This document shows positions 455-33,690 of a stretch of DNA of 33,690 nucleotides, one piece after another. Numbering within the stretch: the stretch's first letter is position 1; each line of letters opens with the position of its first letter. The position numbers and the translations under genes were made by a program. The DNA is from a virus. The DNA is taken from the IMG/VR virus record IMGVR_UViG_3300035670_000790, positions 1-33,690 of that record; one strand, 5' to 3'. The notes below the pieces were generated by a model. The model saw only the letters and a program-made list of their open reading frames with translations. It was not told the DNA's origin and did no database searches.

Positions 455-732
455 TAGGTGAGCGGATGAACAATGAAGCGAGTCCAGCGAGAGAAACGAG
501 CGATGTTGAGCGAATTGTTATACCCCACGAGGTATTAGACCTAGTGAGGTTTATGTGTGCGACATGGACAGATATAGACAAGTGGGCATACACAACCGGC
601 GATGCAATTATGCAATATCCAGTGATCCAAGGCACAAGAAACCAGATGAATCTGATGCGGATTGGTGAGCAGAAACACGATACAAGAAACATTCCAGCGG
701 CAGTAAAGTGGATGCTGGATAATGGGGTATAA
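451..732 (+). CDS. Unknown small protein whose ORF runs through a cassette boundary
   Basis: I chose ATG 451 because it makes an ATGA overlap with the preceding stop and has AGAGG at 441-445; an in-frame ATG at 421 is possible. The first ~22 residues are Glu/Ser/Arg-rich and are read from DNA resembling the inside and right half of an attC-like palindrome (ending GTTATAC at 517-523). The remainder (RFMCATWTDIDKW and on, ending MLDNGV) is the cassette-borne part, 517-733, bounded by GTTATACCCC and GGGGTATAAC. The stop TAA sits in the left box of the next attC-like site. The protein is therefore probably a chimera of site-encoded N-terminus and cassette body. No family recognised. Confidence 0.6.
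   Translation: MIGERMNNEASPARETSDVERIVIPHEVLDLVRFMCATWTDIDKWAYTTGDAIMQYPVIQGTRNQMNLMRIGEQKHDTRNIPAAVKWMLDNGV
501..523 (+). repeat. Right half of an attC-like site (left border of array 1)
   Basis: TTGAGCGAATTGTTAT here matches the right arm and right outer box of the complete attC-like sites at 26076-26134 and 31914-31967. The outer box GTTATAC (517-523) fits GTTRRRY except for one base. I could not find a convincing left arm (AGCTAACC-like) upstream, so this looks like the junction between phage DNA and the first cassette. Its box is complementary to the cassette's own right end: GTTATACCCC (517-526) against GGGGTATAAC (724-733), 10 of 10. Confidence 0.65.
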
Positions 733-774
733 CCCAGAGCTAACCGGCTAGTCCGGTTCAGCGAGTTGTTATAT
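727..774 (+). repeat. attC-like recombination site 1
   Basis: Outer boxes GTATAAC (727-733) and GTTATAT (768-774) are inverted. Inner arms GCTAACCGG (739-747) and CCGGTTCAGC (753-762) pair completely except for one extrahelical base, C759, on the right arm. The layout R''-L''-L'-R' with an unpaired arm base is the hallmark of integron attC sites. The stop codon of the ORF to the left lies in the left box, and the ORF to the right starts 25 bases after the right box. Confidence 0.85.
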
Positions 775-798
775 GGCAACTAATTAGAGGATTGAAAG

Positions 799-1392
799 AT
801 GAAAGTATTGATTGCGTGTGAATATAGCGGCATATCCAGGAGGGCGTTTGAGGCTCTAGGGCATGACGTTTGGAGCGCTGATTTTGAGCCTGCCGAAGAT
901 GGCGCGGCGAATCATTACCAGGGCGATTGCTTTGATCTCATAGAGCGTGAGCATTTTGATTTGATGATAGCGCACCCGCCATGTACGCACCTGGCAGTAA
1001 GTGGCGCGGCTTGGTTCAAGGAAAAGATTGCAGACGGCAGGCAACAGGCAGCACTTGATTTTGTGAAAAATCTCATGGGTGCGCCTATTGAAAGAATTGC
1101 TATTGAGAACCCTGTCAGCGTGATTAGCAGCAAAATACGAAAGCCAGACCAGATAATTCAGCCATGGATGTTTGGGCATACAGAACAAAAGGCTACTTGT
1201 CTATGGCTGAAAAATTTACCGAAGCTGACAGAAACAAATAACGTAAAAGCCGAAATGATGTTATTACCTAAAAGAGAGAGAGAGAGATTGCATTACTTGC
1301 CGCCAAGCCCAACTCGATGGAAAGAAAGAAGCAGAACCTACCAAGGCATTGCTGATGCTTGGGCGATGCAGTGGGGCGGTATTGCCATATAA
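799..1392 (+). CDS. Cytosine-C5-methyltransferase-fold protein, short form
   Basis: 197 residues with the layout of a C5 methyltransferase core: a motif I-like SAM loop at residues 3-20 (VLIACEYSGISRRAFE), the PPC motif with nucleophile-position Cys at 60-62, an ENP version of motif VI at 103-105, and a closing segment RTYQGIADAWAMQW near 179-192 resembling motif X. Full Dcm-type enzymes are 300 residues or more with a target-recognition domain; that domain is absent, so DNA methylation is plausible but not shown. Similar short proteins are common in phages. Start supported by AGAGG upstream. This is the whole cargo of cassette 768-1393, whose ends GTTATATGGCAA and TTGCCATATAAC pair 12 of 12. 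An (AG)n tract of about seven units from 1273 could slip. Confidence 0.75.
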   Translation: MKVLIACEYSGISRRAFEALGHDVWSADFEPAEDGAANHYQGDCFDLIEREHFDLMIAHPPCTHLAVSGAAWFKEKIADGRQQAALDFVKNLMGAPIERIAIENPVSVISSKIRKPDQIIQPWMFGHTEQKATCLWLKNLPKLTETNNVKAEMMLLPKRERERLHYLPPSPTRWKERSRTYQGIADAWAMQWGGIAI

Positions 1393-1393
1393 C

Positions 1394-1430
1394 ACTGGGT
1401 TAGACATTACATGACGGGATGTTTTACGTC
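1394..1430 (+). repeat. Type B palindrome, copy 1, right end of array 1
   Basis: Directly after the cassette end ATATAAC (1387-1393) comes ACTGG, then GTTAGACAT and the core GACGGGATGTTTTACGTC (1413-1430), closely matching the copy at 27024-27083. The right arm (ATGTCTAATACC in the other copies) is missing or replaced here by AAAGGACATAAC, which gives the next gene its ribosome-binding site. It marks the right end of array 1. Confidence 0.75.
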
Positions 1431-1442
1431 AAAGGACATAAC

Positions 1443-6198: not shown

Positions 6199-6699
6199 TT
6201 AAAATGGTCTTACATAAACGATTGCGGTGATGTCTGACCCTGTTACAGCAGCATCGATAGCCGCATAGTCAGCATCCCGAAGCGCCATAACCTGCCCGAA
6301 TATATAACATGTCAAGTCGAAGTCATTTTTAACAGCAGCATGCACATCCGCAGTCGTAGCTAATCCTGACTCTGCCTGATACCCGTCATAGTATGGCGTG
6401 TCATTTGCCACATTGTCAGTGTAGGCAACACTATCCGCACGGGCAGCAAGATACATCAAGCCCACCAAAATACTTGCAGGATCGGACGTAACAGCAAAAG
6501 CCGCCATAAGATCGTTATTGAGATCAGTGTTGTACTGGTTTTTTACAGCTAACCGAGTCGCTGCAAGGTCATATTCCCATGTGGACAATCCTGCATTCCA
6601 TGTACATGTAGGATATGGACGCTGTGTAACCTCAGTGTCAGAAGCTGAACGCCTATCGCCCTCGTAATAATTGGATGAACCGTCTATGTAGTAACCCAT
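6199..6699 (-). CDS. Tail-fibre-associated protein, possible assembly factor
   Basis: 166 residues beginning MGYYIDGSSNYYEGDRR, followed by RPYPTCTWNAGLSTWEYD. Short motifs of the type 'YYeG...RP...W' near the N-terminus occur in phage proteins encoded just after tail fibres (tail-fibre assembly and DUF4376-like proteins). The C-terminal half is helical and acidic. Its start directly abuts the fibre stop at 6699, supporting a chaperone or accessory role for that fibre. Moderately uncertain. Confidence 0.6.
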   Translation of the reverse strand: MGYYIDGSSNYYEGDRRSASDTEVTQRPYPTCTWNAGLSTWEYDLAATRLAVKNQYNTDLNNDLMAAFAVTSDPASILVGLMYLAARADSVAYTDNVANDTPYYDGYQAESGLATTADVHAAVKNDFDLTCYIFGQVMALRDADYAAIDAAVTGSDITAIVYVRPF

Positions 6700-24948: not shown

Positions 24949-25044
24949 CTAGCCCTCGAAGCTGAAGCCTAGCCACGTAAGCACATAGGATACTATGATG
25001 CACCATGCTATTAGCTCAATCATTATGCGTGTTTGGTCTTTCAT
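24949..25044 (-). CDS. 31-residue single-pass membrane peptide
   Basis: ATG 25044 overlaps the preceding stop as ATGA, which fixes this start over a longer in-frame ORF from 25134. The peptide is MKDQTRIMIELIAWCIIVSY and an ending VLTWLGFSFEG, essentially one membrane helix. Such tiny membrane proteins are frequent in phage operons; function unknown. Confidence 0.5.
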   Translation of the reverse strand: MKDQTRIMIELIAWCIIVSYVLTWLGFSFEG

Positions 25045-25328
25045 GATGCGTCCAGTAACCAGTAGCACATATCGCCATTCGGTGTTAGTGCATTGATTCT
25101 TATGATGTTTTCCGATACTTGGACAGCCTGCCACCCTTGGGGGAGTGAGTGTTTATCAGATAGCAGCCTGTCGTATTCTTCTTGTAATACCGCAAGTTTA
25201 GCAGCTAGCATCAGTGCCTCGGCCTCTGGTGATCCTGCTATTACTGTATGTTCAATCCATGCCTGGCTCTTTTGGTCTGCTGATCCGCACATAGTTTCCA
25301 TCACGCTTATTTCTGATCCGTGGGTCAT
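25041..25328 (-). CDS. Hypothetical protein, 95 residues or fewer
   Basis: The central part (EAEALMLAAKLAVLQEEYDR) is a likely coiled coil, followed by GWQAVQVSENIIRINALTPN and a hydrophobic Trp end. ATG 25328 is inside the preceding 46-residue ORF in another frame; an ATG at 25301 is an alternative start. Ends at ATGA with the membrane peptide. Function unknown. Confidence 0.55.
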   Translation of the reverse strand: MTHGSEISVMETMCGSADQKSQAWIEHTVIAGSPEAEALMLAAKLAVLQEEYDRLLSDKHSLPQGWQAVQVSENIIRINALTPNGDMCYWLLDAS

Positions 25329-25392
25329 GCGCTGGAGTCTCCGGCTTGGCTGGCTGGTCAGGTTGTGGCTTGGGCTTTCTTCCTCTAGGCAT
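25252..25392 (-). CDS. Small basic proline-rich protein, 46 residues
   Basis: Starts MPRGRKPKPQPDQPAKPETP at a TAATG junction with the previous gene and ends KEPGMD at 25252. It is strongly basic and Pro-rich at the front, so likely unstructured. It overlaps the beginning of the next gene by 77 bases in another frame; one of the two starts must be wrong or the genes truly overlap. The tight start coupling favours this one being translated. Confidence 0.5.
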   Translation of the reverse strand: MPRGRKPKPQPDQPAKPETPAHDPRIRNKRDGNYVRISRPKEPGMD

Positions 25393-25646
25393 TAGCGTCT
25401 ACCCATTGCGATGTCGAGCGGTGATAGTTTCTTTTTCTTTGCCTCTGCCTGATTCTTTTTATGCTGAGCATCAGCCGCTGCCTTTTCTGCTGCAATTTTG
25501 GCAGCATTAACCCTCTCTGTTTTTGCCTTGGCTTGCTGGCTTACGTCCTTTGCCTTTGCTCCGGTGTGTACTGTAATGCCGCCGGCATCATCACCGCGTT
25601 TAATTGCCGTCTCCTTTGATGATCTGACTGCGCGTTTCTCTGCCAT
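25392..25646 (-). CDS. First gene of the late operon, Lys/Ala-rich coiled-coil protein
   Basis: 84 residues, MAEKRAVRSSKETAIKRGDD, then a long Ala/Lys/Glu helix (KTERVNAAKIAAEKAAADAQ) and a Lys cluster. GAGGG upstream is its ribosome-binding site and the tandem promoters end within 20 bases of it. Function unknown; composition suggests a nucleic-acid- or virion-associated small protein. Confidence 0.6.
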   Translation of the reverse strand: MAEKRAVRSSKETAIKRGDDAGGITVHTGAKAKDVSQQAKAKTERVNAAKIAAEKAAADAQHKKNQAEAKKKKLSPLDIAMGRR

Positions 25647-25659
25647 TGCCTTACCCTCA

Positions 25660-25702
25660 CTATTATCCCTTATAGTGTATCAAGTCAATGCTTTGCGGTC
25701 AA
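25660..25702 (-). promoter_or_regulatory. Tandem sigma-70-type promoters for the late operon
   Basis: On the minus strand, TTGACC (25702-25697), 17 bases, TACACT (25679-25674); and TTGACT (25688-25683), 17 bases, TAATAG (25665-25660). Both have optimal spacing and near-consensus -35 boxes, and they overlap. They lead directly into the first late gene. Use of host RNA polymerase for the late operon is therefore likely. Confidence 0.7.
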
Positions 25703-25708
25703 TCATCC

Positions 25709-25773
25709 AAATGTCTTATATACTTGAACTGTGTGCTTGTTAATATGGACACATCAACCACGGAGATGCAGAC
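25709..25773 (+). promoter_or_regulatory. Duplicated promoter/leader block, copy 1
   Basis: A 65-base block ending at the ATG of the next gene, repeated at 29718-29782 with exactly the same spacing. The left part shares AAATGTCTNATNTACTNGA; the right 29 bases before the start codon are almost identical, from TATGGACACATCAACC through CGGAGATGCAGA, including the GGAG ribosome-binding site. TAATAT at 25741 could be a -10 box. It faces away from the late promoters, making 25660-25773 a divergent control region. Confidence 0.6.
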
Positions 25774-25944
25774 ATGAGCAAGTACCACGTTACAAAAGAA
25801 GGGTTAAGGGTTGGCGCTGGCGGTTATCCGATATGCGGAACAAGAAACAAGGACAGATATTTTGTTGTGACGCTGAAAAAATCAGATTTTGAAGCGTTAC
25901 CGCCTGAGCAACAATGCAGTAAGTGCGCGGTAAGAATTAAATGA
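25774..25944 (+). CDS. Small hypothetical protein, first early gene
   Basis: 56 residues, MSKYHVTKEGLRVGAGGYPI through CSKCAVRIK. C47-x2-C50 and an earlier Cys could make a small metal site (first CGTR near residue 21). It starts right after the duplicated leader with its GGAG site, and ends at an ATGA overlap with the next gene. Probably an early regulator or accessory protein; function unknown. Confidence 0.65.
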   Translation: MSKYHVTKEGLRVGAGGYPICGTRNKDRYFVVTLKKSDFEALPPEQQCSKCAVRIK

Positions 25945-26081
25945 AACCAAAATCTGAACTCATGGCCAGACTTCGCAAGGAGCGAGCTGGCAAGGGGCTG
26001 GTAGAGCTGCGGCTGTGGCTTACGCCAGAACAGAAAGAGCGCGTCTTGAAGTGCGTGTCGCGGCTGAAGCGTGACGCATAA
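25941..26081 (+). CDS. Small ribbon-helix-helix-like protein
   Basis: 46 residues: KSELMARLRKERAGKGLVEL, then RLWLTPEQKERVLKCVSRLK. The Lys/Arg helix, 'GLVELRLWLTPEQ' strand and following helix resemble short phage proteins thought to bind DNA through a ribbon-helix-helix fold. Starts at ATGA. Its stop TAA forms part of the left box of the first attC-like site in array 2, so it is the last phage gene, or an unflanked cassette ORF, before that array. Confidence 0.6.
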   Translation: MKPKSELMARLRKERAGKGLVELRLWLTPEQKERVLKCVSRLKRDA

Positions 26082-26134
26082 TCCAGAGCTAACCGGCTCG
26101 CGTTAGCGAGTCCGAGTTGAGCGAATTGTTATGT
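26076..26134 (+). repeat. attC-like site 2, first of array 2 (59 bp)
   Basis: Outer boxes GCATAAT (26076-26082, final C changed to T) and GTTATGT (26128-26134). Arms GCTAACCGG (26088-26096) and CCGAGTTGAGC (26112-26122) pair throughout except A26115 and G26119, two extrahelical bases on the right arm. Loop CTCGCGTTAGCGAG is itself self-complementary. The 59-bp length and two-bulge structure are classic for attC. Read on the minus strand it begins ACATAACAATTCGCTCAAC, very close to the start of common class 1 attC sites. Confidence 0.9.
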
Positions 26135-26156
26135 GCTGGTAAGGTAAGGGGTATTT

Positions 26157-26333
26157 ATGGAATATGAAGAACTGAAACGAAGATGCGAAGTCATTGAACA
26201 ATGCTTACCCGATTCTCCATTTAAGAATCAAATTATAGAGCTGCATAAAGAGATGCTTTACCGGATTGATTCTTTAGGACAGGCATTAGAAGCAACGAAT
26301 GACGAATTGGCTGATTTGCTTTATAGCACATAA
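26157..26333 (+). CDS. Cassette ORF, 58-residue helical protein
   Basis: MEYEELKRRCEVIEQCLPDS to ...LADLLYST. Mostly acidic helix with two Cys. AAGGGG lies upstream of ATG 26157. The stop TAA lies in the left box of the next site. Its cassette is bounded by GTTATGTGCT (26128-26137) and AGCACATAAC (26325-26334), a perfect 10-bp inverted repeat. Function unknown. Confidence 0.65.
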   Translation: MEYEELKRRCEVIEQCLPDSPFKNQIIELHKEMLYRIDSLGQALEATNDELADLLYST

Positions 26334-26402
26334 CCCAGAGCTATGGGGCGAGCGTAGCGAGTCCAACGAACGGAGTGAGTGACCATGAGCGAATTGTTAT
26401 AT
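26328..26402 (+). repeat. attC-like site 3 (75 bp, extended loop)
   Basis: Outer boxes ACATAAC (26328-26334) and GTTATAT (26396-26402). Arms GCTATGG (26340-26346) and CCATGAGC (26383-26390) pair except for G26387, one extrahelical base on the right arm. The long middle contains its own short complementary pieces, like the variable terminal structure of many attC sites. Confidence 0.88.
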
Positions 26403-26418
26403 GGCTAAAGGAGATTAT

Positions 26419-26745
26419 ATGAGCGTGATTTGTAGAAACACCGGATGCAGACAGGAAATAGAATGTATAAATTGCGATTGTGGGTTAGTGGTTTATTTGC
26501 ACAGTCTAACACCGCAGGCAAAAACAATGACTTGGAATGAATGGAGAGCCGCTGGCGGTTGTGGGCTTTCTATGTTAGCAGATGGTGAACTGCATAGGAG
26601 CGGGATATTAGAAAAGCCATTGGCTATACAAAACCCGCTGCTAGGAGATGTTGCGCGTGGTTCTGTTCTTGCAGAGCGCGAGATTGCAAGATTTGGGTAC
26701 AAGAATCTAGGCATGGATAATTGGGCTGTGCGAGAAGCCATATAA
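26419..26745 (+). CDS. Cassette ORF, Cys-rich protein
   Basis: 108 residues from ATG 26419, which has AAAGGAG six bases upstream; a longer in-frame start ATG 26401 lies in the attC box. Residues 5-23 carry six Cys (ICRNTGCRQEIECINCDCG), probably a zinc-binding knot, followed by a Trp-containing helical body. No family recognised. The cassette ends GTTATATGGC and GCCATATAAC are a perfect 10-bp inverted repeat. Confidence 0.65.
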   Translation: MSVICRNTGCRQEIECINCDCGLVVYLHSLTPQAKTMTWNEWRAAGGCGLSMLADGELHRSGILEKPLAIQNPLLGDVARGSVLAEREIARFGYKNLGMDNWAVREAI

Positions 26746-26792
26746 CCCAGTTTTTCAGCGGGCGAAGCTCCGGTGCAAAACCGTTGTTAGGC
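26740..26792 (+). repeat. attC-like site 4
   Basis: Outer boxes ATATAAC (26740-26746) and GTTAGGC (26786-26792); GTTAGGC fits GTTRRRY exactly and is the commonest integron right box. Arms TTTTTCAGCGG and CCGGTGCAAAA pair with two mismatches around GCGAAGCT. The boxes do not match each other because each belongs to a different neighbour cassette. Confidence 0.82.
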
Positions 26793-26818
26793 GTTGTAAT
26801 TAACGAGAGGTAGAGAAG

Positions 26819-27022
26819 ATGGACGAAATCAGGAAATATAGATTTACAATTGATGTAGAGATTCAGATTTCAGGAAGGCAGATAGACGAAGAAAAAATAA
26901 ATCAGATGCTTGTATGTTCGACTAATGAGCATGGAATGCCTGGAGTGCTTTTCGATGATGATGATTTAGATATTCAGGCATTTAGTAATTCGTGGGAAGT
27001 TTCATGCGATAGGATCGCCTAA
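26819..27022 (+). CDS. Cassette ORF, 67-residue acidic protein
   Basis: MDEIRKYRFTIDVEIQISGR, with an acidic DDDDLDIQ segment near the end. The alternating pattern in residues 5-20 suggests a beta strand pair. GAGAGG precedes the start. The stop TAA lies in the cassette's right box; ends GTTAGGCG (26786-26793) and CGCCTAAC (27016-27023) are complementary over 8 bases. Function unknown. Confidence 0.65.
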   Translation: MDEIRKYRFTIDVEIQISGRQIDEEKINQMLVCSTNEHGMPGVLFDDDDLDIQAFSNSWEVSCDRIA

Positions 27023-27023
27023 C

Positions 27024-27083
27024 ACTGGGTTAGACATCACATGACGGGAAGTTTTACGTCATATCAGCGGAATGTCTAATACC
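27024..27083 (+). repeat. Type B palindrome, copy 2, right end of array 2
   Basis: After the cassette end GCCTAAC comes ACTGG, then GTTAGACAT (27029-27037), core GACGGGAAGTTTTACGTC (27043-27060) whose ends TGACG/CGTCA pair, and ATGTCTAATACC closing the outer arm. GTTAGACAT and ATGTCTAAT are inverted with one mismatch, so it looks like a minimal cassette without an ORF. It has no T tract, arguing against a simple terminator. Confidence 0.8.
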
Positions 27084-27136
27084 ACAATTGCTATGGATTG
27101 CTAGAATGAGGCTGTAAATCAAACGAGGGTACGCAA

Positions 27137-27358
27137 ATGAAAAACATAGTGATAGTAGGTATTTTAGTAATCGGAGCGGCTTGGTACGGGTATAACCGTG
27201 ACCTGACGATTATCAAGGAATCAGCCAGTGACAGGATGCACGCCATGCAGGAAGCCTGTAGAGAGCAGGGAGCGGAGTATATGGATATGGGGTTTCAGTT
27301 TGATAGTGACGGCAAGGAAGTGTTCAGCCTTACCTGCCGCATGGGAGTAGCAAGATGA
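27137..27358 (+). CDS. Small membrane-anchored protein
   Basis: 73 residues: N-terminal membrane segment IVIVGILVIGAAWYGY, then a polar periplasmic or cytoplasmic domain with two Cys (C40 and C68) that could form a disulphide if exported. GAGGG precedes the start. It is the first gene after array 2 and is coupled (ATGA) to the next small membrane gene. Function unknown. Confidence 0.65.
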   Translation: MKNIVIVGILVIGAAWYGYNRDLTIIKESASDRMHAMQEACREQGAEYMDMGFQFDSDGKEVFSLTCRMGVAR

Positions 27359-27501
27359 AGCGACCAATGGCAACACGTATAACCCCTGTCACTGATACAT
27401 GGCAGGATGGGTGGAACAAGCCTAAAGCATGGGAGGTGGCACTAGCCGCCTTCGGGCTGGCACTGATGCTGGCTTTCTTCCTGTCACTGTTGGCGGTGTG
27501 A
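27355..27501 (+). CDS. Small C-terminally membrane-anchored protein, 48 residues
   Basis: MKRPMATRITPVTDTWQDGW, then EVALAAFGLALMLAFFLSLL as a membrane helix at the C-terminus. The ATG overlaps the previous stop (ATGA), and the next gene starts one base after its TGA. The paired anchors in opposite ends of two adjacent proteins hint that they may work together, but nothing more can be said. Confidence 0.6.
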   Translation: MKRPMATRITPVTDTWQDGWNKPKAWEVALAAFGLALMLAFFLSLLAV

Positions 27502-27502
27502 T

Positions 27503-28273
27503 ATGAAAGAAAGACCGATACTGTTTTCAGCCCCTATGGTTCACGCCATTCTGGAAGGTCGCAAGACGCAGACTAGGCGGATGGTGAAGGGACAAGAGTT
27601 TTGGGGGGAGTTTTCTCGTAGCGCAAGGCCAATTGATAGCGGCATGTGGAGGGTTGAGGGCTGCGAGCCAATCAATGAGGATTTGCAAGGAAACAAAGTC
27701 ACATTTGTTGATGTTCGCTGCCCCTACGGCCAGCCCGGCGACAGGCTGTGGGTGCGGGAGACTTGGCAGTATTACGACTGGACAGAGGATGGTATGCCGT
27801 GGATCAGGTATTGCGCTGACGGGAAAACAATTATCCGTAGCGCAAATGTGCCTGATGAGTGGAGCGAGAAAATCAGCGGTATCTGGGAGTCGCTGTCTGA
27901 TCCGGCGAATTACGACATCGACCAAAGAGCGGCGGACAGGCGCTGGCGACCATCCATCCACATGCCGCGCTGGGCTTCCCGCATCACGCTGGAAATCACT
28001 GGCGTCAGGGTGGAGAGGCTGAACGATATAAGCGAACAGGATGCGATTGCGGAAGGACTCAAGGCAATTACGAAGGACGGCTCGCTGGTTAAGTACGGCA
28101 TCCCAGACCGTGACGGCCTGCCAGGAGCAGATGATGACGGCTGGCCATGGAAAAAGTGGTGTACCGATCCGAGAGGCGCGTTTTTTGGCCTATGGGAATC
28201 AATCAACGGCGCAGGAAGCTGGCGGCAGAATCCTTTGGTGTGGGTTGTTGAGTTTAAGAGGGTGCATCCATGA
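27503..28273 (+). CDS. ASCH/PUA-like phage protein
   Basis: 256 residues. The start MKERPILFSAPMVHAILEGR with KTQTRRMV, the PYGQPGDRLWVRETW block, and ISEQDAIAEGL with FGLWESINGAGSW are highly characteristic of a widespread phage family. The fold relates to ASCH/PUA-type nucleic-acid-binding domains (short PGD..WVRE segment). Its biochemical role is not established. ATGA overlap with the next gene. Confidence 0.75.
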   Translation: MKERPILFSAPMVHAILEGRKTQTRRMVKGQEFWGEFSRSARPIDSGMWRVEGCEPINEDLQGNKVTFVDVRCPYGQPGDRLWVRETWQYYDWTEDGMPWIRYCADGKTIIRSANVPDEWSEKISGIWESLSDPANYDIDQRAADRRWRPSIHMPRWASRITLEITGVRVERLNDISEQDAIAEGLKAITKDGSLVKYGIPDRDGLPGADDDGWPWKKWCTDPRGAFFGLWESINGAGSWRQNPLVWVVEFKRVHP

Positions 28274-28671
28274 ACCCCCCTATGATAGCAGGGGCGTACC
28301 AGTGGCGCGGTCAGGGGATGGATGCGACCGTACCCAACATGCCAAGGCATACGGTTGATTGCGACTACGGAACAACAGGGAGGCTCAGGTGTGACTGTGG
28401 GGTTAGCAGGTTCAGGGATAGGCTAACATGGCATTATCAGGAGCAGAATAGAAATGGGTATGAATACGAGGAATTGCGGCAGAAATTGGCGGCAGCATTG
28501 CAGGCCGAAATAAACGCGATGGATCGCGTCATCGCACTACAGGACGTGCTGGTGGAATACATGGATGTTGCCAAGGCCGGTGATCAGGTCATCGTTGGCG
28601 GTGGCCTGTGGGATCGCGGCATGGAACAGGTGAAGGGCTACGGAGACTTGCCGTGGGGAGGTAAAGCATGA
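28270..28671 (+). CDS. Hypothetical protein, 133 residues
   Basis: Starts MNPPMIAGAYQWRGQGMDAT, with DCDYGTTGRLRCDCGVSRF containing C31, C40 and C42 and a helical second half (LRQKLAAALQAEINAMDRVI). It is coupled to both neighbours through ATGA. The Cys/His set at residues 27-42 might bind zinc. No family recognised. Confidence 0.6.
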   Translation: MNPPMIAGAYQWRGQGMDATVPNMPRHTVDCDYGTTGRLRCDCGVSRFRDRLTWHYQEQNRNGYEYEELRQKLAAALQAEINAMDRVIALQDVLVEYMDVAKAGDQVIVGGGLWDRGMEQVKGYGDLPWGGKA

Positions 28672-28823
28672 AGCCGTGCAGCCTGTGTAGAACCAACGAG
28701 AAATCCAAAGGAATGACTCGTTGCAAGCCATGCAATGCTGATTATATGAGGGAATACATGCGAAAACGGAGAAGTCATACTGTAGGCAAAGGCCTGTCTT
28801 CCCTGCTTGCAAGAGGTTGGTGA
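28668..28823 (+). CDS. Small zinc-ribbon-like protein, 51 residues
   Basis: MKPCSLCRTNEKSKGMTRCK with PCNADYMREYMRKRR: C4-x2-C7 and C19-x2-C22 make a four-Cys zinc site followed by a very basic helix, as in small phage HNH-related or DNA-binding proteins. ATGA overlap with the previous gene; a terminator follows 17 bases after its stop. Confidence 0.65.
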   Translation: MKPCSLCRTNEKSKGMTRCKPCNADYMREYMRKRRSHTVGKGLSSLLARGW

Positions 28824-28839
28824 TGTGCTTGGAGCAGAC

Positions 28840-28864
28840 TAAAACCCTTCTGGGTCTTTTTTTT
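28840..28864 (+). terminator. Rho-independent terminator
   Basis: AAACCC-TTCT-GGGT followed by CTTTTTTTT. The stem is short (4 pairs plus flanking A-T pairs) but has a compact loop and an eight-T tract. It ends the 27.1-28.8 kb gene group before the replication gene. The 130 bases after it (28865-28995) contain a TATACT at 28898 but no well-spaced -35 box. Confidence 0.6.
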
Positions 28865-28995
28865 GCTTTGGCGTACCGGTGAACTGTATGCGTGTTTTAT
28901 ACTTTGATGTGCGGCTAGGGTAGCTCCCGAAAAGCCTGCCCTGTCTGACGGGCTTGCCGCATATCTTATCAGACCACCTAGACAGAGGTATTACA

Positions 28996-29709
28996 GTGAG
29001 CAACAAATTCCTAGATTTGGCATGGAAAGCCAATGTCACGCATACGCAGAAACTTGTCCTAATATCACTCGCAGATCAGGCTAACGATGACGGCATATGC
29101 TGGCCATCTGTATCAACGACATCCCAGCGCACCGGATTATGCGAACGAGCGACCAGACGCGCACTGGCTGACCTAGAGAAACAGGGTAATATCAAGAGAA
29201 GCTACCACACCGGCAGACCGACAATATACACCCTAACCCCTGCACTAGATGCACCCATGCACGAAATGCACCCCTGCACCACATGCCCCCCACCCCTGCA
29301 CCACATGCAGGACACCCCTGCACCAGATGCCTATGACCCCTGCACCACGAGTCAACATAACCATAAAGAACCATCATTGAACCATCAATTAACCATCATT
29401 GACGCTCCAGCCAAGGCTGTCGCCAAAAAGGTTAGGGCTACTAGGTTGTATTCTGATTGGAAACTACCAGAGGAATGGGCAGAGTGGGCAACGATAGAGG
29501 GTATGGATAGCGTGACAGTTAGGAAGCAAGAGAGCATATTCAGGGACTACTGGATAGCAAAGTCAGGAAAGGATGCTGCCAAACTGGACTGGGAGGCAAC
29601 TTGGCGTAACTGGGTCAGGAGGCATCTAGATCGTAATCCGGTTAAGGCACAGCCTGCTGATGACTTCCTGGCTCGTCACACAGACAGGTCATGGGCTGAG
29701 GGTCTGTAG
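28996..29709 (+). CDS. Replication initiator, helix-turn-helix plus DnaT-like C-terminus
   Basis: 237 residues from GTG 28996, preferred over ATG 28954 because of AGAGG at 28983-28987 and because MSNKFLDLAWKANVTHTQKL is the usual beginning. Residues 1-85 are the helix_turn_helix_36 domain (WPSVSTTSQRTGLCERATRR, ALADLEKQGNIKR). A linker (residues about 80-125) is encoded by the iterons. The C-terminus (ESIFRDYWIAKSGKDAAKLD, WEATWRNWVRRHL) is the DnaT/primosomal type seen in phage replication proteins. It should bind the iterons and recruit helicase, as lambda O does. Confidence 0.85.
   Translation: MSNKFLDLAWKANVTHTQKLVLISLADQANDDGICWPSVSTTSQRTGLCERATRRALADLEKQGNIKRSYHTGRPTIYTLTPALDAPMHEMHPCTTCPPPLHHMQDTPAPDAYDPCTTSQHNHKEPSLNHQLTIIDAPAKAVAKKVRATRLYSDWKLPEEWAEWATIEGMDSVTVRKQESIFRDYWIAKSGKDAAKLDWEATWRNWVRRHLDRNPVKAQPADDFLARHTDRSWAEGL
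29236..29352 (+). repeat. Iterons, putative replication origin inside the initiator gene
   Basis: Six copies of a 17-bp unit, consensus ACCCCTGCACCACATGC, starting at 29236, 29253, 29270, 29292, 29314 and 29336. Spacing is 17, 17, 22, 22, 22 bp; 22 bp is about two helical turns. The last copy is diverged at its end. An AT-rich tract with repeated ACCATCATT-type words (29357-29400) follows and could be the unwinding element. Location inside the initiator gene next to an AT-rich stretch matches lambda ori in gene O. Confidence 0.8.
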
Positions 29710-29717
29710 CCTACGAC

Positions 29718-29782
29718 AAATGTCTAATTTACTGGATTTGCAGGATTGGTAGTATGGACACATCAACCACGGAGATGCAGAT
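29718..29782 (+). promoter_or_regulatory. Duplicated promoter/leader block, copy 2
   Basis: Same 65-base layout as 25709-25773: AAATGTCTAATTTACTGGAT, then at the same distance TATGGACACATCAACC and CGGAGATGCAGA up to the ATG at 29783. The identical spacing with a diverged middle suggests that the ends are constrained by function, probably a promoter plus leader with ribosome-binding site. Confidence 0.6.
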
Positions 29783-29911
29783 ATGAACACACTCAGCAAG
29801 AAACAAGAGATTCAGGTTCGCCGCCAAGCGCAGAAACACTTAAGAGGTATCCCAGCTCGCCAAAATGCTGCAGCCATTGTCAGAGCAGCAGCAGAGATAG
29901 GAAAGCAGTAA
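29783..29911 (+). CDS. Small basic protein, 42 residues
   Basis: MNTLSKKQEIQVRRQAQKHL with RGIPARQNAAAIVRAAAEIG and a KQ end; one basic helix-rich domain. It starts directly after the duplicated leader and its TAA overlaps the next ATG (TAATG). Likely an early nucleic-acid-associated peptide; function unknown. Confidence 0.6.
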   Translation: MNTLSKKQEIQVRRQAQKHLRGIPARQNAAAIVRAAAEIGKQ

Positions 29912-30114
29912 TGAACGACATAGAACTTATGAAAGTGACTGGTTATAACTACACGAAAGACGAGACAAAAAGCTATACCTACGAAGATCAGCACCTAAAG
30001 CTAGAGATGGTGCTGAAGGGTAACGCACTCAATTTCCCGTCACGGTATGAAGTTGAGGAGGCGGTTAAATCACTGTTGAGAGGGGCGTATGGTTATGAAA
30101 ACGAGGATGAGTAA
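29911..30114 (+). CDS. Hypothetical protein, 67 residues
   Basis: MNDIELMKVTGYNYTKDETK to ...YENEDE. ATG 29911 is fixed by the TAATG junction; the open frame extends upstream to 29746 but there it overlaps the leader and the previous gene. Acidic and probably alpha/beta. It overlaps the next gene by about 25 bases. Function unknown. Confidence 0.6.
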   Translation: MNDIELMKVTGYNYTKDETKSYTYEDQHLKLEMVLKGNALNFPSRYEVEEAVKSLLRGAYGYENEDE

Positions 30115-30385
30115 AGCCAGCCTTGATGCTTGGTACTTGAACATGGGAATCGGGCTGACCAGTAAGCAGTTGATAGATGTGGCTGAGTATGTCAGGAAGA
30201 ACGCCAGGAAGCCGATTAGCAACAATCAAATAAGCATTGGAATGAATCTGCCTATCAATGCTGTATCTGCAAGGCGCAATGCCCTAGTGCATCTAGGTGT
30301 GCTAATTAAAGAGCCAGAGTTATCTAAATGCCCTGTGACAGGCAGGGGAGTGAGCAAGGTTAGGCATGTGGGGGTTAAGGTATGA
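30089..30385 (+). CDS. Winged-helix-like small protein, 98 residues
   Basis: GLTSKQLIDVAEYVRKNARK, then NNQISIGMNLPINAVSARRN and ALVHLGVL resemble a winged helix-turn-helix in which the second helix follows 'NNQIS'. GAGAGGGG precedes ATG 30089; ATG 30095 is an alternative. The C-terminus is basic. It may be a DNA-binding regulator or replication accessory factor. Ends at ATGA with the next gene. Confidence 0.55.
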   Translation: MVMKTRMSKASLDAWYLNMGIGLTSKQLIDVAEYVRKNARKPISNNQISIGMNLPINAVSARRNALVHLGVLIKEPELSKCPVTGRGVSKVRHVGVKV

Positions 30386-30693
30386 ACACAGAAAAGCTAA
30401 AACTACTGGAGCTTTGGAAATACAGAATGTTAAGCATGGATATACAGACTGACACACTTATTAGTTGGATGATGGTATCGCCTGAATCCCCGCTTATCAC
30501 TGCTGTTAGTAGGATGATGGAATCATACACCATGACTACGGCACTACTTGTTGGCGATGATAGCGAGTGGCTTACATGGTACTGGCTGGAGTGTGATCTA
30601 GGCAGGAAGCCGAAGCAGGCAGGCAATGGAGATAACATGCGGATGATTGAGAGTATAAACGATCTGGCAGAGTTGATAGATGCGCAAGTGTAA
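30382..30693 (+). CDS. Hypothetical protein, 103 residues
   Basis: MNTEKLKLLELWKYRMLSMD and on; mainly helical, with several Met and Trp and WLTWYWLECDLGRK in the middle. It is coupled through ATGA at its start and overlaps ninG by 14 bases at its end. No family recognised; its place just before ninG suggests a lambda nin-region-like accessory gene. Confidence 0.6.
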   Translation: MNTEKLKLLELWKYRMLSMDIQTDTLISWMMVSPESPLITAVSRMMESYTMTTALLVGDDSEWLTWYWLECDLGRKPKQAGNGDNMRMIESINDLAELIDAQV

Positions 30694-31225
30694 GCTGTGC
30701 AAATCCAAGACGGCAGGGCTAATCATTAACCTTAACGCCTTCTGCTCACTCGACCACGCAATTGAGTGGGCTAGGGATGAGAAGCGGATTCGCGAAACGC
30801 GAAAGAAAGAATCACGGCGTAAAAAGAGAGAGTATTATGAAAACAGCAAAGAGCATTGGGAAAAGAAAGCGCGGATGGCGTGTCATGCTTATGTCCGTTA
30901 CCGCGACAGTGGCAAGCCTTGCCCTGCTTGTGGGATCACTAACCCTGTACAATGGCATGCCTCACACTACAGACCGTCAGGCGTTAACAGCAAATTGCGA
31001 TACGATGCAGAGCGCAACATCCACGCATGTTGTTCCCAGTGTAATACACATATGTCCGGCAACCTCACAAAGTACAGGGCAGGACTGGTTGAACGAATCG
31101 GGGAGGCAGCAGTGGCAGAACTCGATGCCAACCACGAGACAAAGCGGTGGACACTAGATGAGCTGAAAGAGGTTCACAGGTATTACAGTGAGAAGCTGAA
31201 GGAGTTGAAATGCCAAAGTATCTAG
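30680..31225 (+). CDS. ninG: NinG recombination protein (lambda Rap-like)
   Basis: 181 residues. N-terminal C4-x2-C7 with C22 and H26, a Lys/Arg coiled helix, then C81-x2-C84, WHASHYRPSG (H93, H96), NIHACCSQCN (C117, C121) and GNLTKYRAGL. This is the NinG/Rap layout, a structure-specific endonuclease acting on branched recombination intermediates. It overlaps ninB by 16 bases. Confidence 0.92.
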   Translation: MRKCKLCKSKTAGLIINLNAFCSLDHAIEWARDEKRIRETRKKESRRKKREYYENSKEHWEKKARMACHAYVRYRDSGKPCPACGITNPVQWHASHYRPSGVNSKLRYDAERNIHACCSQCNTHMSGNLTKYRAGLVERIGEAAVAELDANHETKRWTLDELKEVHRYYSEKLKELKCQSI

Positions 31226-31620
31226 TAAACACACAAGAAAAAGCATTCAGCGTAGCCAGCATGATTAGCAGCTTGAACCTGGAGAAAGCATGGGACATCA
31301 CTATCGAACCACACGCAGACAAGCGCACACTGCCTCAGAATGCGCTGATGTGGCGTTGGTACACAATAATAGGTAACGAGATAGGCTACACCAAGGATGA
31401 GATGCACAACCTGTTGCGTGAGATGTTTTTGCCGTGGGAGGAGATTGAGCTGAAGGGTGTTAAGCAGAAGCGGCTGATGTCTACCAGTACCGAAGAATTC
31501 AAGACCAAGCATATGAGCGCATATCTTGATGCTATCGACAGGTTTGCAGCTAGTGATCTACGTATAATCCTGCCTCGTTCCAGTGATGCGGCGTATGATG
31601 AGTGGAGTAGGATCAGATGA
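31210..31620 (+). CDS. ninB: NinB recombination mediator (lambda Orf-like)
   Basis: 136 residues, close to lambda Orf (146). PHADKRTLPQNALMWRWYTI is the family signature; GYTKDEMHNLLREMFLPWEE follows. The lambda protein binds single-stranded DNA and SSB and helps load annealing protein. AAGGAG precedes ATG 31210. Adjacent ninG and the downstream Sak3-like gene support a shared recombination pathway. Confidence 0.92.
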   Translation: MPKYLVNTQEKAFSVASMISSLNLEKAWDITIEPHADKRTLPQNALMWRWYTIIGNEIGYTKDEMHNLLREMFLPWEEIELKGVKQKRLMSTSTEEFKTKHMSAYLDAIDRFAASDLRIILPRSSDAAYDEWSRIR

Positions 31621-31664
31621 CTACGAGCAATGTCGTATATAAATCAGCATTGGAGTGTGGATAA
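31617..31664 (+). CDS. Possible 15-residue coupled ORF after ninB
   Basis: ATG 31617 overlaps the ninB stop as ATGA and reads MTTSNVVYKSALECG before TAA. It may be a chance frame or the remnant of a gene broken when array 3 entered. Nothing else is seen in 31665-31695. Confidence 0.25.
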   Translation: MTTSNVVYKSALECG

Positions 31665-31695
31665 TAGAGTTGTGGTGAGTGAAAGGAAGAATTAA

Positions 31696-31731
31696 ATGAC
31701 TACTGAACTTGTGCGACTTGTTAGGCTATGA
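31696..31731 (+). CDS. 11-residue leader peptide across the array 3 border
   Basis: AAAGGAAG lies seven bases upstream of ATG 31696, a better ribosome-binding site than most genes here. The frame reads MTTELVRLVRL and stops at TGA 31729-31731, overlapping ATG 31728 of the first cassette ORF (ATGA). It would feed ribosomes into a cassette that lacks its own site. The attI1 site of class 1 integrons is known to hold a similar short ORF that boosts cassette translation. Confidence 0.5.
   Translation: MTTELVRLVRL
31720..31726 (+). repeat. Single GTTAGGC box at the left border of array 3
   Basis: A perfect GTTRRRY box one base before the first cassette ORF, without the palindromic arms of the attC-like sites. 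It is complementary to the right end of the same cassette, GCCTAAC at 31914-31920. It therefore looks like a simple, attI-like or secondary insertion point. Confidence 0.6.
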
Positions 31732-31919
31732 AAAAGCATCATCTAGTCAAAATAGAATGGCGAGATCCTTGTTCAGATTGGCCGTGGTTTTTTATCATTG
31801 GATTTGATGGTGAATGGGTGCATTTGCGCGGCGCGGATTACCCGGATGGAACTGGGAAACACGACGGATCATCATTCTGGGTTCACAGAAATGAGATCAA
31901 GTCAATGATTGATGCCTAA
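31728..31919 (+). CDS. Cassette ORF, 63 residues
   Basis: MKKHHLVKIEWRDPCSDWPW and on, rich in Trp and His, ending NEIKSMIDA. The LVKIEWRDP and EWVHLRGAD strands suggest a small beta barrel (SH3-like), only a guess. It begins in the border box and has no separate ribosome-binding site; the overlapping leader peptide can supply translation. The TAA stop is in the next site's left box. Confidence 0.6.
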   Translation: MKKHHLVKIEWRDPCSDWPWFFIIGFDGEWVHLRGADYPDGTGKHDGSSFWVHRNEIKSMIDA

Positions 31920-31967
31920 CCCACAGCTAACCGGCGCGAAGCGTCCGAGTTGAGCGAATTTTTAGGC
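31914..31967 (+). repeat. attC-like site 5, first of array 3
   Basis: Outer boxes GCCTAAC (31914-31920) and TTTAGGC (31961-31967; first G of GTTAGGC changed to T). Arms GCTAACCGG (31926-31934) and CCGAGTTGAGC (31945-31955) pair except A31948 and G31952. The arms are identical to those of 26076-26134 while the loop differs (CGCGAAGCGT), showing the same site family. Confidence 0.88.
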
Positions 31968-31994
31968 GGCAACTAACTACAGAGGATAAACAGA

Positions 31995-32312
31995 ATGAAA
32001 CGCGATAAATATAAGTTACAAAAAGACTTTGAGGGCCGGTTTGCCGGTAGATTCGGAAATAATATCGTTTCCAAAAAAACACCATCTGGTGAATATGAAA
32101 ACGGCGATGTATTGGCTATGTATTGCGGATATGTTGCCGGGATAGACTCTGTGAAAATAAAAGTCCCGGCAACTTCAGTAAGATGGCGCGATGCAAATAC
32201 CGCAAAGCTAGAGGATATTTTAAATGCCGAAATAGAAATGAGAAATAAATTTATAGACGCCTGTCGAGAGGCTGGTATAGAGCCGGTATTCGGTGGAGAT
32301 ATAGATGATTGA
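31995..32312 (+). CDS. Cassette ORF, 105 residues
   Basis: MKRDKYKLQKDFEGRFAGRF, then EIEMRNKFIDACREAGIEPV and an acidic end. AGAGGATAAACAG precedes ATG 31995. Basic first half, helical second half; no family recognised. Its cassette is the only one whose two ends do not match: TTTAGGC on the left, GTATAAC on the right (32314-32320). Confidence 0.6.
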   Translation: MKRDKYKLQKDFEGRFAGRFGNNIVSKKTPSGEYENGDVLAMYCGYVAGIDSVKIKVPATSVRWRDANTAKLEDILNAEIEMRNKFIDACREAGIEPVFGGDIDD

Positions 32313-32313
32313 C

Positions 32314-32400
32314 GTATAACCCAGAGCTGAGGGGCGAGAGATGAGCGAAGCGAAGAACGAGTCCAGTGGCGAAGCCACGACCTCTAGCGAGTTGTTATGT
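32314..32400 (+). repeat. attC-like site 6 (87 bp, extended loop)
   Basis: Outer boxes GTATAAC (32314-32320) and GTTATGT (32394-32400). Arms GCTGAGG (32326-32332) and CCTCTAGC (32381-32388) pair except T32385. The long loop has an inner GTGGC...GCCAC hairpin and contains the ATG (32341) of the next ORF. Confidence 0.85.
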
Positions 32401-32601
32401 TGCAGAGAGTGCGGAAACACTTTTATAGAATGTTTCCCATCTTGGTGGGTTGGCTGCAAACCGTGCAATAACCATGTTAGCGGGGCGACACGCAGCGGTG
32501 CGGTTTCCAGATGGAATAAGCAACATAACCAGTTTATTCAGCGGTGCGCAGCATCCGCTGGAATTAGTTGTTATATGCCACATGGAGAAATCACATGGTA
32601 G
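32341..32601 (+). CDS. Cassette ORF with Lar-like zinc ribbon, fused through two attC-like sites
   Basis: 86 residues. The core CCRECGNTFIECFPSWWVGC, KPCNNHVSG and AVSRWNKQ has the spacing of short zinc-ribbon proteins of the Lar restriction-alleviation type (C-x2-C ... C-x2-C/N, then A-x-x-x-W-N). The first ~19 residues are read from the loop of site 6, the last ~17 from site 7 and the next cassette's beginning, because this frame has no stop in the box ACATAAC. The native product may thus be a chimera or start at an alternative codon near 32391. The cassette is only 32394-32529. Confidence 0.5.
   Translation: MSEAKNESSGEATTSSELLCCRECGNTFIECFPSWWVGCKPCNNHVSGATRSGAVSRWNKQHNQFIQRCAASAGISCYMPHGEITW
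32523..32576 (+). repeat. attC-like site 7
   Basis: Outer boxes ACATAAC (32523-32529) and GTTATAT (32570-32576). Arms ATTCAGCGG (32536-32544) and CCGCTGGAAT (32555-32564) pair with a single extra G on the right arm around loop TGCGCAGCAT. The arms differ in sequence from the GCTAACCGG family but keep the same architecture and bulge position, so structure is conserved rather than sequence. Confidence 0.87.
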
Positions 32602-32972
32602 TCACAGGCAGGGTACATGGAGCGGCAGCCAGAAAATATGCTGGTTATTGCTACAGAAAGCCTATAAAAACTAGGCTTGATATTTTTTCGATTGATCCCG
32701 CAAGGATTGATCCTTTACATGAATACCCGAGAATAATAGAAAAGCCCATGTACCCAGCGGAATGCAAAACTGTTGATCTGGCGGATTATGAAGCGTTTAT
32801 TGGCGCAATGAATGAGAAAGGTGAAAGCCAATTAACCATAACTATGCTGCCAAACGAGTACACACAAGCTGAAGTGCCGCTGGTAGTTTACGAGATGACA
32901 ATAAACGGGATACTGCCAAACAGTGGTTTTTGTATCGACGAGGCTATGAGACGCTGTTTCAGTGGCATATAA
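32595..32972 (+). CDS. Cassette ORF, 125 residues
   Basis: MVVTGRVHGAAARKYAGYCY and on, then IDPARIDPLHEYPRIIEKPM and LTITMLPNEYTQAEVPLVVY. ATG 32595 has GGAGAAA upstream; a longer frame from 32568 begins inside the attC box. Alpha/beta character, no family recognised. Its cassette has the best ends of all: GTTATATGCCAC (32570-32581) and GTGGCATATAAC (32962-32973), 12 of 12. Confidence 0.65.
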   Translation: MVVTGRVHGAAARKYAGYCYRKPIKTRLDIFSIDPARIDPLHEYPRIIEKPMYPAECKTVDLADYEAFIGAMNEKGESQLTITMLPNEYTQAEVPLVVYEMTINGILPNSGFCIDEAMRRCFSGI

Positions 32973-32973
32973 C

Positions 32974-33033
32974 ACTGGGTTAGACATCACATGACGCAAA
33001 ACATCCCGTAATATCAGCGGAATGTCTAATACC
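32974..33033 (+). repeat. Type B palindrome, copy 3 with inverted core, right end of array 3
   Basis: ACTGG, GTTAGACATCACAT and TATCAGCGGAATGTCTAATACC are the same as in copy 2, but the 18-base core is GACGCAAAACATCCCGTA (32993-33010). That matches the reverse complement of copy 1's core at 16 of 18 positions and of copy 2's at 15 of 18, and does not match either core in direct orientation. It follows the last cassette end at 32973. Confidence 0.82.
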
Positions 33034-33085
33034 ACAGCACCAAAAAGCATGGAACAATACAGACTCAATACATCGGAGAATGGTT

Positions 33086-33397
33086 ATGACTGAACAGTTT
33101 ATGAGCATAGACGACATCAGGGATTTACTTGGAGACCCTGTATACTACCCGACTGAGGTGGTGGGCATGATCGCCGAACGTGTGGCGAATATTAACGCTG
33201 CTGCCCTAGCGCACACTGTGTTTTTTAGCATTAACAAGTTTGCCAGTTACACAGTAATGAGCCGTGAAGCTGACAAGGCAGACATCAATATCGAGACAAT
33301 AAAGAAATACATAATAAAGCAGCATCCAATGGTAGCTATTGACTGCACCAAGGAACTGCTGGATATGTACAGATCATTAGAGGAGTGGGATGTATGA
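33086..33397 (+). CDS. Hypothetical early protein, 103 residues
   Basis: MTEQFMSIDDIRDLLGDPVY and on, helical; starts at ATG 33086 because CGGAG lies seven bases upstream (ATG 33080 is too close). It is the first phage gene after array 3 and ends at an ATGA overlap with the Sak3-like gene, so it belongs to the recombination operon. Function unknown. Confidence 0.65.
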   Translation: MTEQFMSIDDIRDLLGDPVYYPTEVVGMIAERVANINAAALAHTVFFSINKFASYTVMSREADKADINIETIKKYIIKQHPMVAIDCTKELLDMYRSLEEWDV

Positions 33398-33690
33398 GTA
33401 AGGTGGCGGAAGTGTGGAAAACCCTGTCAGCAGTAGATTGCAGTAAGCAGGTTGAAAAAAAAGGTCAGCTATCCTACCTGTCGTGGACATGGGCTTGGCA
33501 GATACTAATGGAGTATTATCCTTCCAGCACATTCGAGTTTCACCCTGACACGCACCAAGGCGAAACTGTAATGGTATCGTGTACCGTTACAGTTGAGGGC
33601 ATGGCTAGGACAATGTGGCTACCAGTAATGGATAACCGCAATAAATCAATAGTTAACCCAACAAGCAGGGAAATCAGTGACGCACGGATG
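33394..33690 (+). CDS. Sak3/DUF1071-type single-strand annealing protein (partial)
   Basis: The first 99 residues before the window end. VEKKGQLSYLSWTWAWQILM with EYYP and TMVSCTVTVEG... MARTMWLPVMDN is the N-terminal signature of DUF1071, the Sak3 family of phage single-strand DNA annealing proteins. With NinB and NinG it would complete a lambda-like recombination set. ATG 33394 overlaps the previous stop (ATGA). The C-terminus is outside the window. Confidence 0.85.
   Translation, partial: MSKVAEVWKTLSAVDCSKQVEKKGQLSYLSWTWAWQILMEYYPSSTFEFHPDTHQGETVMVSCTVTVEGMARTMWLPVMDNRNKSIVNPTSREISDARM

Follow-up and report, generated by a model that had tools for sequence, protein, structure and literature searches.

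In the parts of their report available to us, Qi et al. 2023 (PMC9892861) describe CALINs (clusters of attC sites lacking an integrase) in phages, DNA methyltransferase cargo, GTTRRRY boundary motifs and IntI1 activity on phage attCs. Phage CALINs are known. A reference for cassette entry is the attachment site attI1: according to the excerpted text of PMC12901181, it consists of an L box (CCCTAAA) and an R box (GTTRRRY) 5 nt apart, with the minimum core AAACAAAGTTRRRY. Here we analyse a window, the whole 33,690-nt stretch of a linear IMG/VR virus record whose portal relatives are tailed phages. It carries three copies of an element, type B, that constitutes a defined candidate entry site.

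The window resembles the phage CALINs of PMC9892861, as far as the excerpted report describes them, in carrying small attC-bounded cassettes and DNA methyltransferase cargo in a phage without intI. In contrast to those CALINs, it has three arrays, repeated attI-like heads and genes inverted relative to attC. Two or more attC sites, with no integrase close by within this linear record, place it under the CALIN definition. The cargo gene, at 799–1392 in cassette 768–1393, matches the phage DNA methyltransferase family phrog_757 (5.7e-69).

The first-pass annotation had described type A repeats alongside type B. Their context, attC cassettes and an array head, was overlooked. The type A repeats are laid out as integron attC sites and separate small plus-strand open reading frames (ORFs) into units ending in cassette-specific terminal inverted repeats of 7–12 bp. 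Nine cassette units form three arrays, at 517–1393, 26128–27023 and 31720–32973 (Table 1). Intervals ending in GTTA.../...TAAC with at least 9 bp number five on the plus strand versus 0.5 in shuffles, and a cassette's own ends match over 7–12 bp, compared with 4–7 bp for the ends of neighbouring cassettes. Matching R'' (RYYYAAC) and R' (GTTRRRY) ends of 7–12 bp occur in seven of the nine cassettes and, judged by eye, an 8 bp match in an eighth; the unit at 31961–32320 is the sole exception. The array tails differ: array 2 starts at a complete attC that directly follows a phage gene, arrays 1 and 3 at half an attC. An upstream search for a partner of the R'' box came up empty at all three complete left-most attCs tested, those of window array 2, L007 and L008.

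Several further features of these cassettes are worth recording. ORF 421–732 runs through the half attC at 478–523, fusing upstream sequence to the cassette gene, and beside array 1 the segment 62–454 matches an HNH endonuclease family with a NUMOD4 motif. Contig L043 holds a second cassette with an attC at 6277–6472, on the opposite strand and apart from its main array. Immediately after R', cassettes of the window, L006, L007, L008 and L043 have a leader in common (by eye, roughly CTAAYTACRGAGG...ATG), and this sharing suggests that the cassettes of separate viral contigs come from a common phage cassette pool.

Table 1. Cassette arrays and type B elements of the window, in order of position.
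Feature	Position	Strand	Basis or remark
Partial attC (L'-R' half in plus view), array 1 tail	478..523	-	Sequence layout
Cassette	517..733	+	11 bp terminal inverted repeat
attC	727..774	-	Extra base in plus-strand 3' arm, hence canonical orientation minus
Cassette	768..1393	+	12 bp terminal inverted repeat
Type B copy 1, array head, left part only	1391..1431	-	Core 1413–1430, oriented as copy 2
Phage gene ending ...KRDA	25941..26081	+	Stop inside degenerate R'' of array 2's first attC
attC, degenerate R'' (GCATAAT)	26076..26134	-	Sequence layout
Cassette	26128..26334	+	10 bp terminal inverted repeat
attC	26328..26402	-	Orientation test
Cassette, ORF 26401–26745	26396..26746	+	11 bp terminal inverted repeat
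attC-like site, orientation not scored	26740..26792	-	Sequence layout
Cassette, ORF 26819–27022, adjoins type B copy 2	26786..27023	+	Ends GTTAGGCG/CGCCTAAC, 8 bp by eye
Type B copy 2, array head	27021..27086	-	Core 27043–27060, orientation opposite to copy 3
Cassette, half attC before	31720..31920	+	7 bp terminal inverted repeat
attC, degenerate R' (TTTAGGC)	31914..31967	-	Sequence layout
Cassette-like unit	31961..32320	+	Ends not matching
attC	32314..32400	-	Orientation test
Short cassette	32394..32529	+	10 bp terminal inverted repeat
attC	32523..32576	-	Orientation test
Cassette, G006 homolog similar exactly to last base of R''	32570..32973	+	12 bp terminal inverted repeat
Type B copy 3, array-head element	32971..33036	-	attI-like on minus (...GTCTAAC-CCAGT-G|TT); after R'' of cassette 32570–32973
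Copy 3 core: arm GACG, loop CAAAACATCC, arm CGTA	32993..33010		Orientation as L043 homolog

The extra unpaired base of the attC L box lies on a fixed arm, and we used it to orient the sites in a test calibrated on two phage-borne integrons. Among the controls, Vibrio phage p16 has 13 of 14 attC hits and 15 of the 18 annotated genes after intIA on the plus strand, its sole discordant hit adjoining intIA. Shewanella M16-3 scores 7/7 minus in the main array and 1/1 plus in its CALIN, in both cases in the same sense as the genes, and the single array site of TJE1 (1/1) scores plus, agreeing with its genes. In the window and its counterparts, array attCs score minus and genes run plus: 4/4 in the window, 1/1 in L006 and 5/5 in L007, as well as the array site of MW202573 (L017), a contig of PMC9892861 for which the available parts of that report do not mention inversion. 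These counts cover array sites, setting aside as non-array the window site at 1502, L016 28166 (beside intIA), L015 12768, 27268 and 27478, L014 34544, L017 1223 and 25823, and L007 1270.

A second signal points the same way. The T-N6-G type of extrahelical signature belongs to the attC bottom strand (PMC3053210, in the part available). In the attC right halves here, T-N6-G/C lies on the plus strand (read by eye, with four window sites scored). The longest ORF of terminal-repeat cassettes lies on the signature strand in 5/6 cases in the window, 3/3 in G006, 5/7 in G003 and 3/3 in L006; the same holds for 3/3 in the arrays of L043, 2/2 in the array of G007 and 1/1 in L017. In the controls the longest ORF is opposite the signature (8/8 array rows in L015, 3/3 in L014). 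This tally omits as non-array G007 8867 (both strands), G007 14408, L043 2961, G009 10218, L015 28976, 1650 and 102, and both rows of L011; L016 is covered by the extra-base test instead, and four G010 rows and G009 124 are ambiguous.

Since array attCs score minus and genes run plus, the cassettes of this group carry their genes in the sense opposite to attC, and the usual, though not strictly defining, arrangement of genes in the attC sense does not hold for the window cassettes. The inverted genes would be readable by plus-strand phage transcription, an orientation that points to selection of the cassette pool for it. Because the attC sense is minus, type B heads every window array, all three copies lying at the same end of their arrays. 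Read on the minus strand, each cluster would then be a standard array, a type B head followed by cassette–attC units. We had considered type B first as a terminal attC and later as a top-strand recombination target, and set both aside because the orientation test makes the head reading simpler.

At the head, type B occupies the attI position and has the layout of a simple attI site. On the minus strand it reads ...TGACG-N10-CGTCATGTRATGTCTAAC-CCAGT-G|TT, that is, TCTAAC-N5-G|TTRRRY, and both the L box and the R box are present in all three window copies. The boxes recur at the array heads of L043, G006 and G007 with a 4-nt spacer rather than 5. The G006 head is TGACG-TATTTAATTA-CGTCA in plus view, with TCTAATTAGTG|TT; that of L043 has the loop CAAAACATCA in plus view, again with TCTAATTAGTG|TT; and that of G007, read by eye, is GTCTAATTGTAG|TT without a hairpin. 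A TCTAA L box is missing from the array heads of L006, L008 and G003. Type B is like class 1 attI in that an L box, a 5-nt spacer and the R box G|TTRRRY stand at the array head, perhaps with repeats further upstream. Unlike class 1 attI, it occurs in several copies, has no adjacent cognate intI in the window and contains a hairpin with a flipping loop, and it is known here from its sequence.

Homologs of type B stand at the cassette end in the related phage G006 and in viral contig L043. G006 is genuinely related: its structural genes are syntenic and mostly 57–82% identical in amino acids, with three internal genes at 28–36%. Array 3's last cassette and its G006 homolog are similar up to base 32973, the final base of R'', and no further; beyond it lies type B in the window and an attC in G006. 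This sharp boundary places the recombination point at the start of type B. Separately, two paralogs of the KRDA gene lie in G006 (L029 3356–3493 and 4611–4745), one followed by type B and the other by an attC.

We considered two other accounts of what type B is. It could be an ordinary phage intergenic element, such as an operator, a weak terminator or an RNA hairpin, beside which cassettes entered by chance via non-classical attG sites. In the window, G006 and L043 type B indeed separates the last cassette from the phage gene that follows, and ATGTCTAAT recurs near the promoter-like repeats at 25708 and 29717. Yet matches to ATGTCTAAT with at most one mismatch are at chance level (10 found versus 8.9 expected), no Rfam family matches type B, and similarity begins exactly at the recombination point; we consider this account unlikely. 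Type B could also be an attC body minus one R box, in which case the flip described below would fall in a variable terminal structure and be irrelevant to docking. Copies 2 and 3 offer some grounds for this: their shared sequence spans R'' to the expected start of R', where it ends as an attC remnant also would, and an 8 bp stem (TTAGACAT/ATGTCTAA) surrounds their hairpin. In addition, an internal attC in L007 has ACTGG as its R''-proximal spacer too. Against this, the outer arm is missing from copy 1, G006 and L043, leaving outer pairing in 2/5 copies; the second R box is missing from 5/5; and all five stand at the head end, none within an array. An attC origin seems to us unlikely.

The exact type B patterns had no match in viral or genome collections, and no bacterial type B was found with the exact pattern. 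Megablast of window 25000–33690 and blastn of the type B region and arrays 2 and 3 gave no match among phages, nor did blastn of the type B region among plasmids. A search for NinB relatives returned no result. The outer-stem pattern hit only L012, a coding match, and L044, one of three core-pattern hits, lies inside a coding gene and was judged a chance match. No docking site proved to be empty, that of G006 having an 8 bp cassette-like pair before it. The phages closest by portal, YeP4, TPWB-05 and Piluca, proved too distant for an empty-site comparison: YeP4 and TPWB-05 have no cassette candidates, and Piluca has two, taken as chance.

Type B copies differ in the orientation of their core. 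The first-pass annotation had reported that copy 3 carries, at 32993–33010, the reverse complement of the core of the other form with two or three changes, between near-identical flanks. These coordinates are exact, and the loop flip is real. In a pattern scan, the copy 2 pattern matches copy 3 on the minus strand only, with three mismatches, and none of 100 shuffles reached that number of matches. Because the arms, TGACG/CGTCA, are palindromic and silent on orientation, we left them out and compared the 10-nt loops. Copies 1 and 2 agree at 9/10 positions directly. Copy 3 agrees with copy 1 at 2/10 directly and 9/10 inverted, and with copy 2 at 3/10 directly and 8/10 inverted. Two random loops of the same composition would reach at least 9 in the better orientation with a probability of 0.00037. 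The near-identical flanks hold for copies 2 and 3 but not for copy 1, which has the left part alone, up to and including CGTCA at 1431, and lacks the right part (ATCAGCGGAATGTCTAATACCACA) that copies 2 and 3 share. The short inverted repeats noted around the core are likewise present, a 5–6 bp stem enclosing the loop in 5/5 copies (three in the window, G006 and L043) with one arm of copy 3 mutated.

Comparison between contigs informs the direction of the flip. The L043 loop matches that of copy 3 at 9/10 directly and that of copy 1 at 8/10 inverted, and the G006 loop is unlike either form (3–4/10 both ways). The cores do not split into two unrelated families, the outcome that would have told against a flip: each form is the reverse complement of the other, and the orientation of copy 3 is found again in L043. 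As the L043 loop has the copy 3 orientation, copy 3 may keep the older form and copies 1 and 2 have arisen from it by flipping, a parsimony argument that is weak with its single informative outgroup. The polarity is probably opposite to that assumed in the first-pass annotation, which took copy 3 as the inverted copy. An alternative is that copy 3 acquired its core by recombination from an L043-like phage, with no flip in this genome. The 9/10 identity of the two loops fits such a donor, but copy 3 shares its flanks with copy 2 rather than with L043, and some flip would be required anyway; we think this rather doubtful.

Small hairpin-linked inversions are common in plastid genomes. Type B resembles these, and template-switch spacer inversions generally, in having a short loop flipped between short inverted repeats; unlike them, it lies in a recombination-site context and its loop sequence is kept between contigs in either orientation. 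Template switching between short inverted repeats is a known process that inverts the spacer (PMC8604942, in the part available), and arms of 5–6 bp around a 10-nt loop have a geometry that suits it. The first-pass annotation had proposed a hairpin intermediate, template switching or a recombinase. The first two fit the stem and the known process, but a dedicated recombinase found no support. Such an enzyme would invert the core to switch the polarity of the docking site. Both orientations do occur, within one genome and between contigs, and the loop motif GATGTTTTG of copy 3 and L043 partly duplicates the L-box motif GTGATGTCTAA in the same direction, which the flip reverses. This is the one direct repeat-like motif seen (compare the IntI-bound DR1/DR2 of attI), and it is confined to copy 3 and L043. 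The arms are nevertheless short for a site-specific recombinase, and both orientations have arrays of 2–3 cassettes behind them. We hold a dedicated recombinase, for which no evidence appeared, to be very improbable and favour template switching for the loop flip. The flip itself is a small mutation of a known type, one that suggests that the hairpin forms and that the loop sequence is retained both ways round.

In our judgement it is about evenly balanced whether type B is an attI-like docking site of an integrase-less phage cassette platform, with its loop flipped by template switching. The model starts from the three integrase-less clusters of integron-type cassettes, which lie in a tailed phage's early region. 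The docking site would comprise TCTAAC, 5 nt and G|TTRRRY, with the upstream hairpin TGACG-N10-CGTCA. An integron integrase acting in trans, presumably the host's, would insert cassettes at type B, and a polymerase switching template between the two short hairpin arms would most likely account for an occasional loop flip. What the sequences show is the loop flip, the arrays and their orientation, the head position of type B and its homologs in two further viral contigs; we infer docking function, integrase supply in trans and template switching, the first from the position, boundary, repetition and geometry of type B. No integron integrase was found in the window, a linear record, or in the L006, L007, L008 and L017 contigs, in a search that scored the Vibrio record positive. 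No host was found for the phage. Both results count against the docking reading, as do the heads without a TCTAA L box, the 4-nt spacer of G006 and L043, the G006 loop that resembles neither form, the ends of copies 2 and 3 at an expected R' box, and the failure to find an exact bacterial match or an empty site. Like attG sites (PMC12901181, in its available part), type B would be a non-attI site of cassette entry into genomes; unlike attG, it is repeated and conserved between viral contigs.

Neither inverted cassettes nor repeated attI-like heads are described in the available parts of PMC9892861, and no further reports of phage CALINs were found by title. Together the two features look new; the novelty is provisional because the literature search excluded subscription papers and preprints. 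A broader scenario, which we offer as a long shot, is a phage lineage with its own integrase-less platforms, several attI-like sites per genome facing backwards to transcription, that borrows host integrase and gathers a pool of inverted-gene cassettes. There, the flip would change the polarity of an accessory integrase-binding motif and so tune acceptance.

Other elements in the window merit brief mention. The segment 28908–28975 matches the Rfam int-alpA RNA (RF02996) at 37 bits, over the gathering score, upstream of the replication gene at 28954; inside the replication gene, 29252–29348 holds imperfect 22-nt repeats (CACCCCTGCACCA...). The 73-nt copies at 25708–25780 and 29717–29789, 82% identical, are promoter-like leaders before early genes, and a similar leader (ACACATCAACCAAGGAGATGCAGACATG) precedes the KRDA-gene block of G006.
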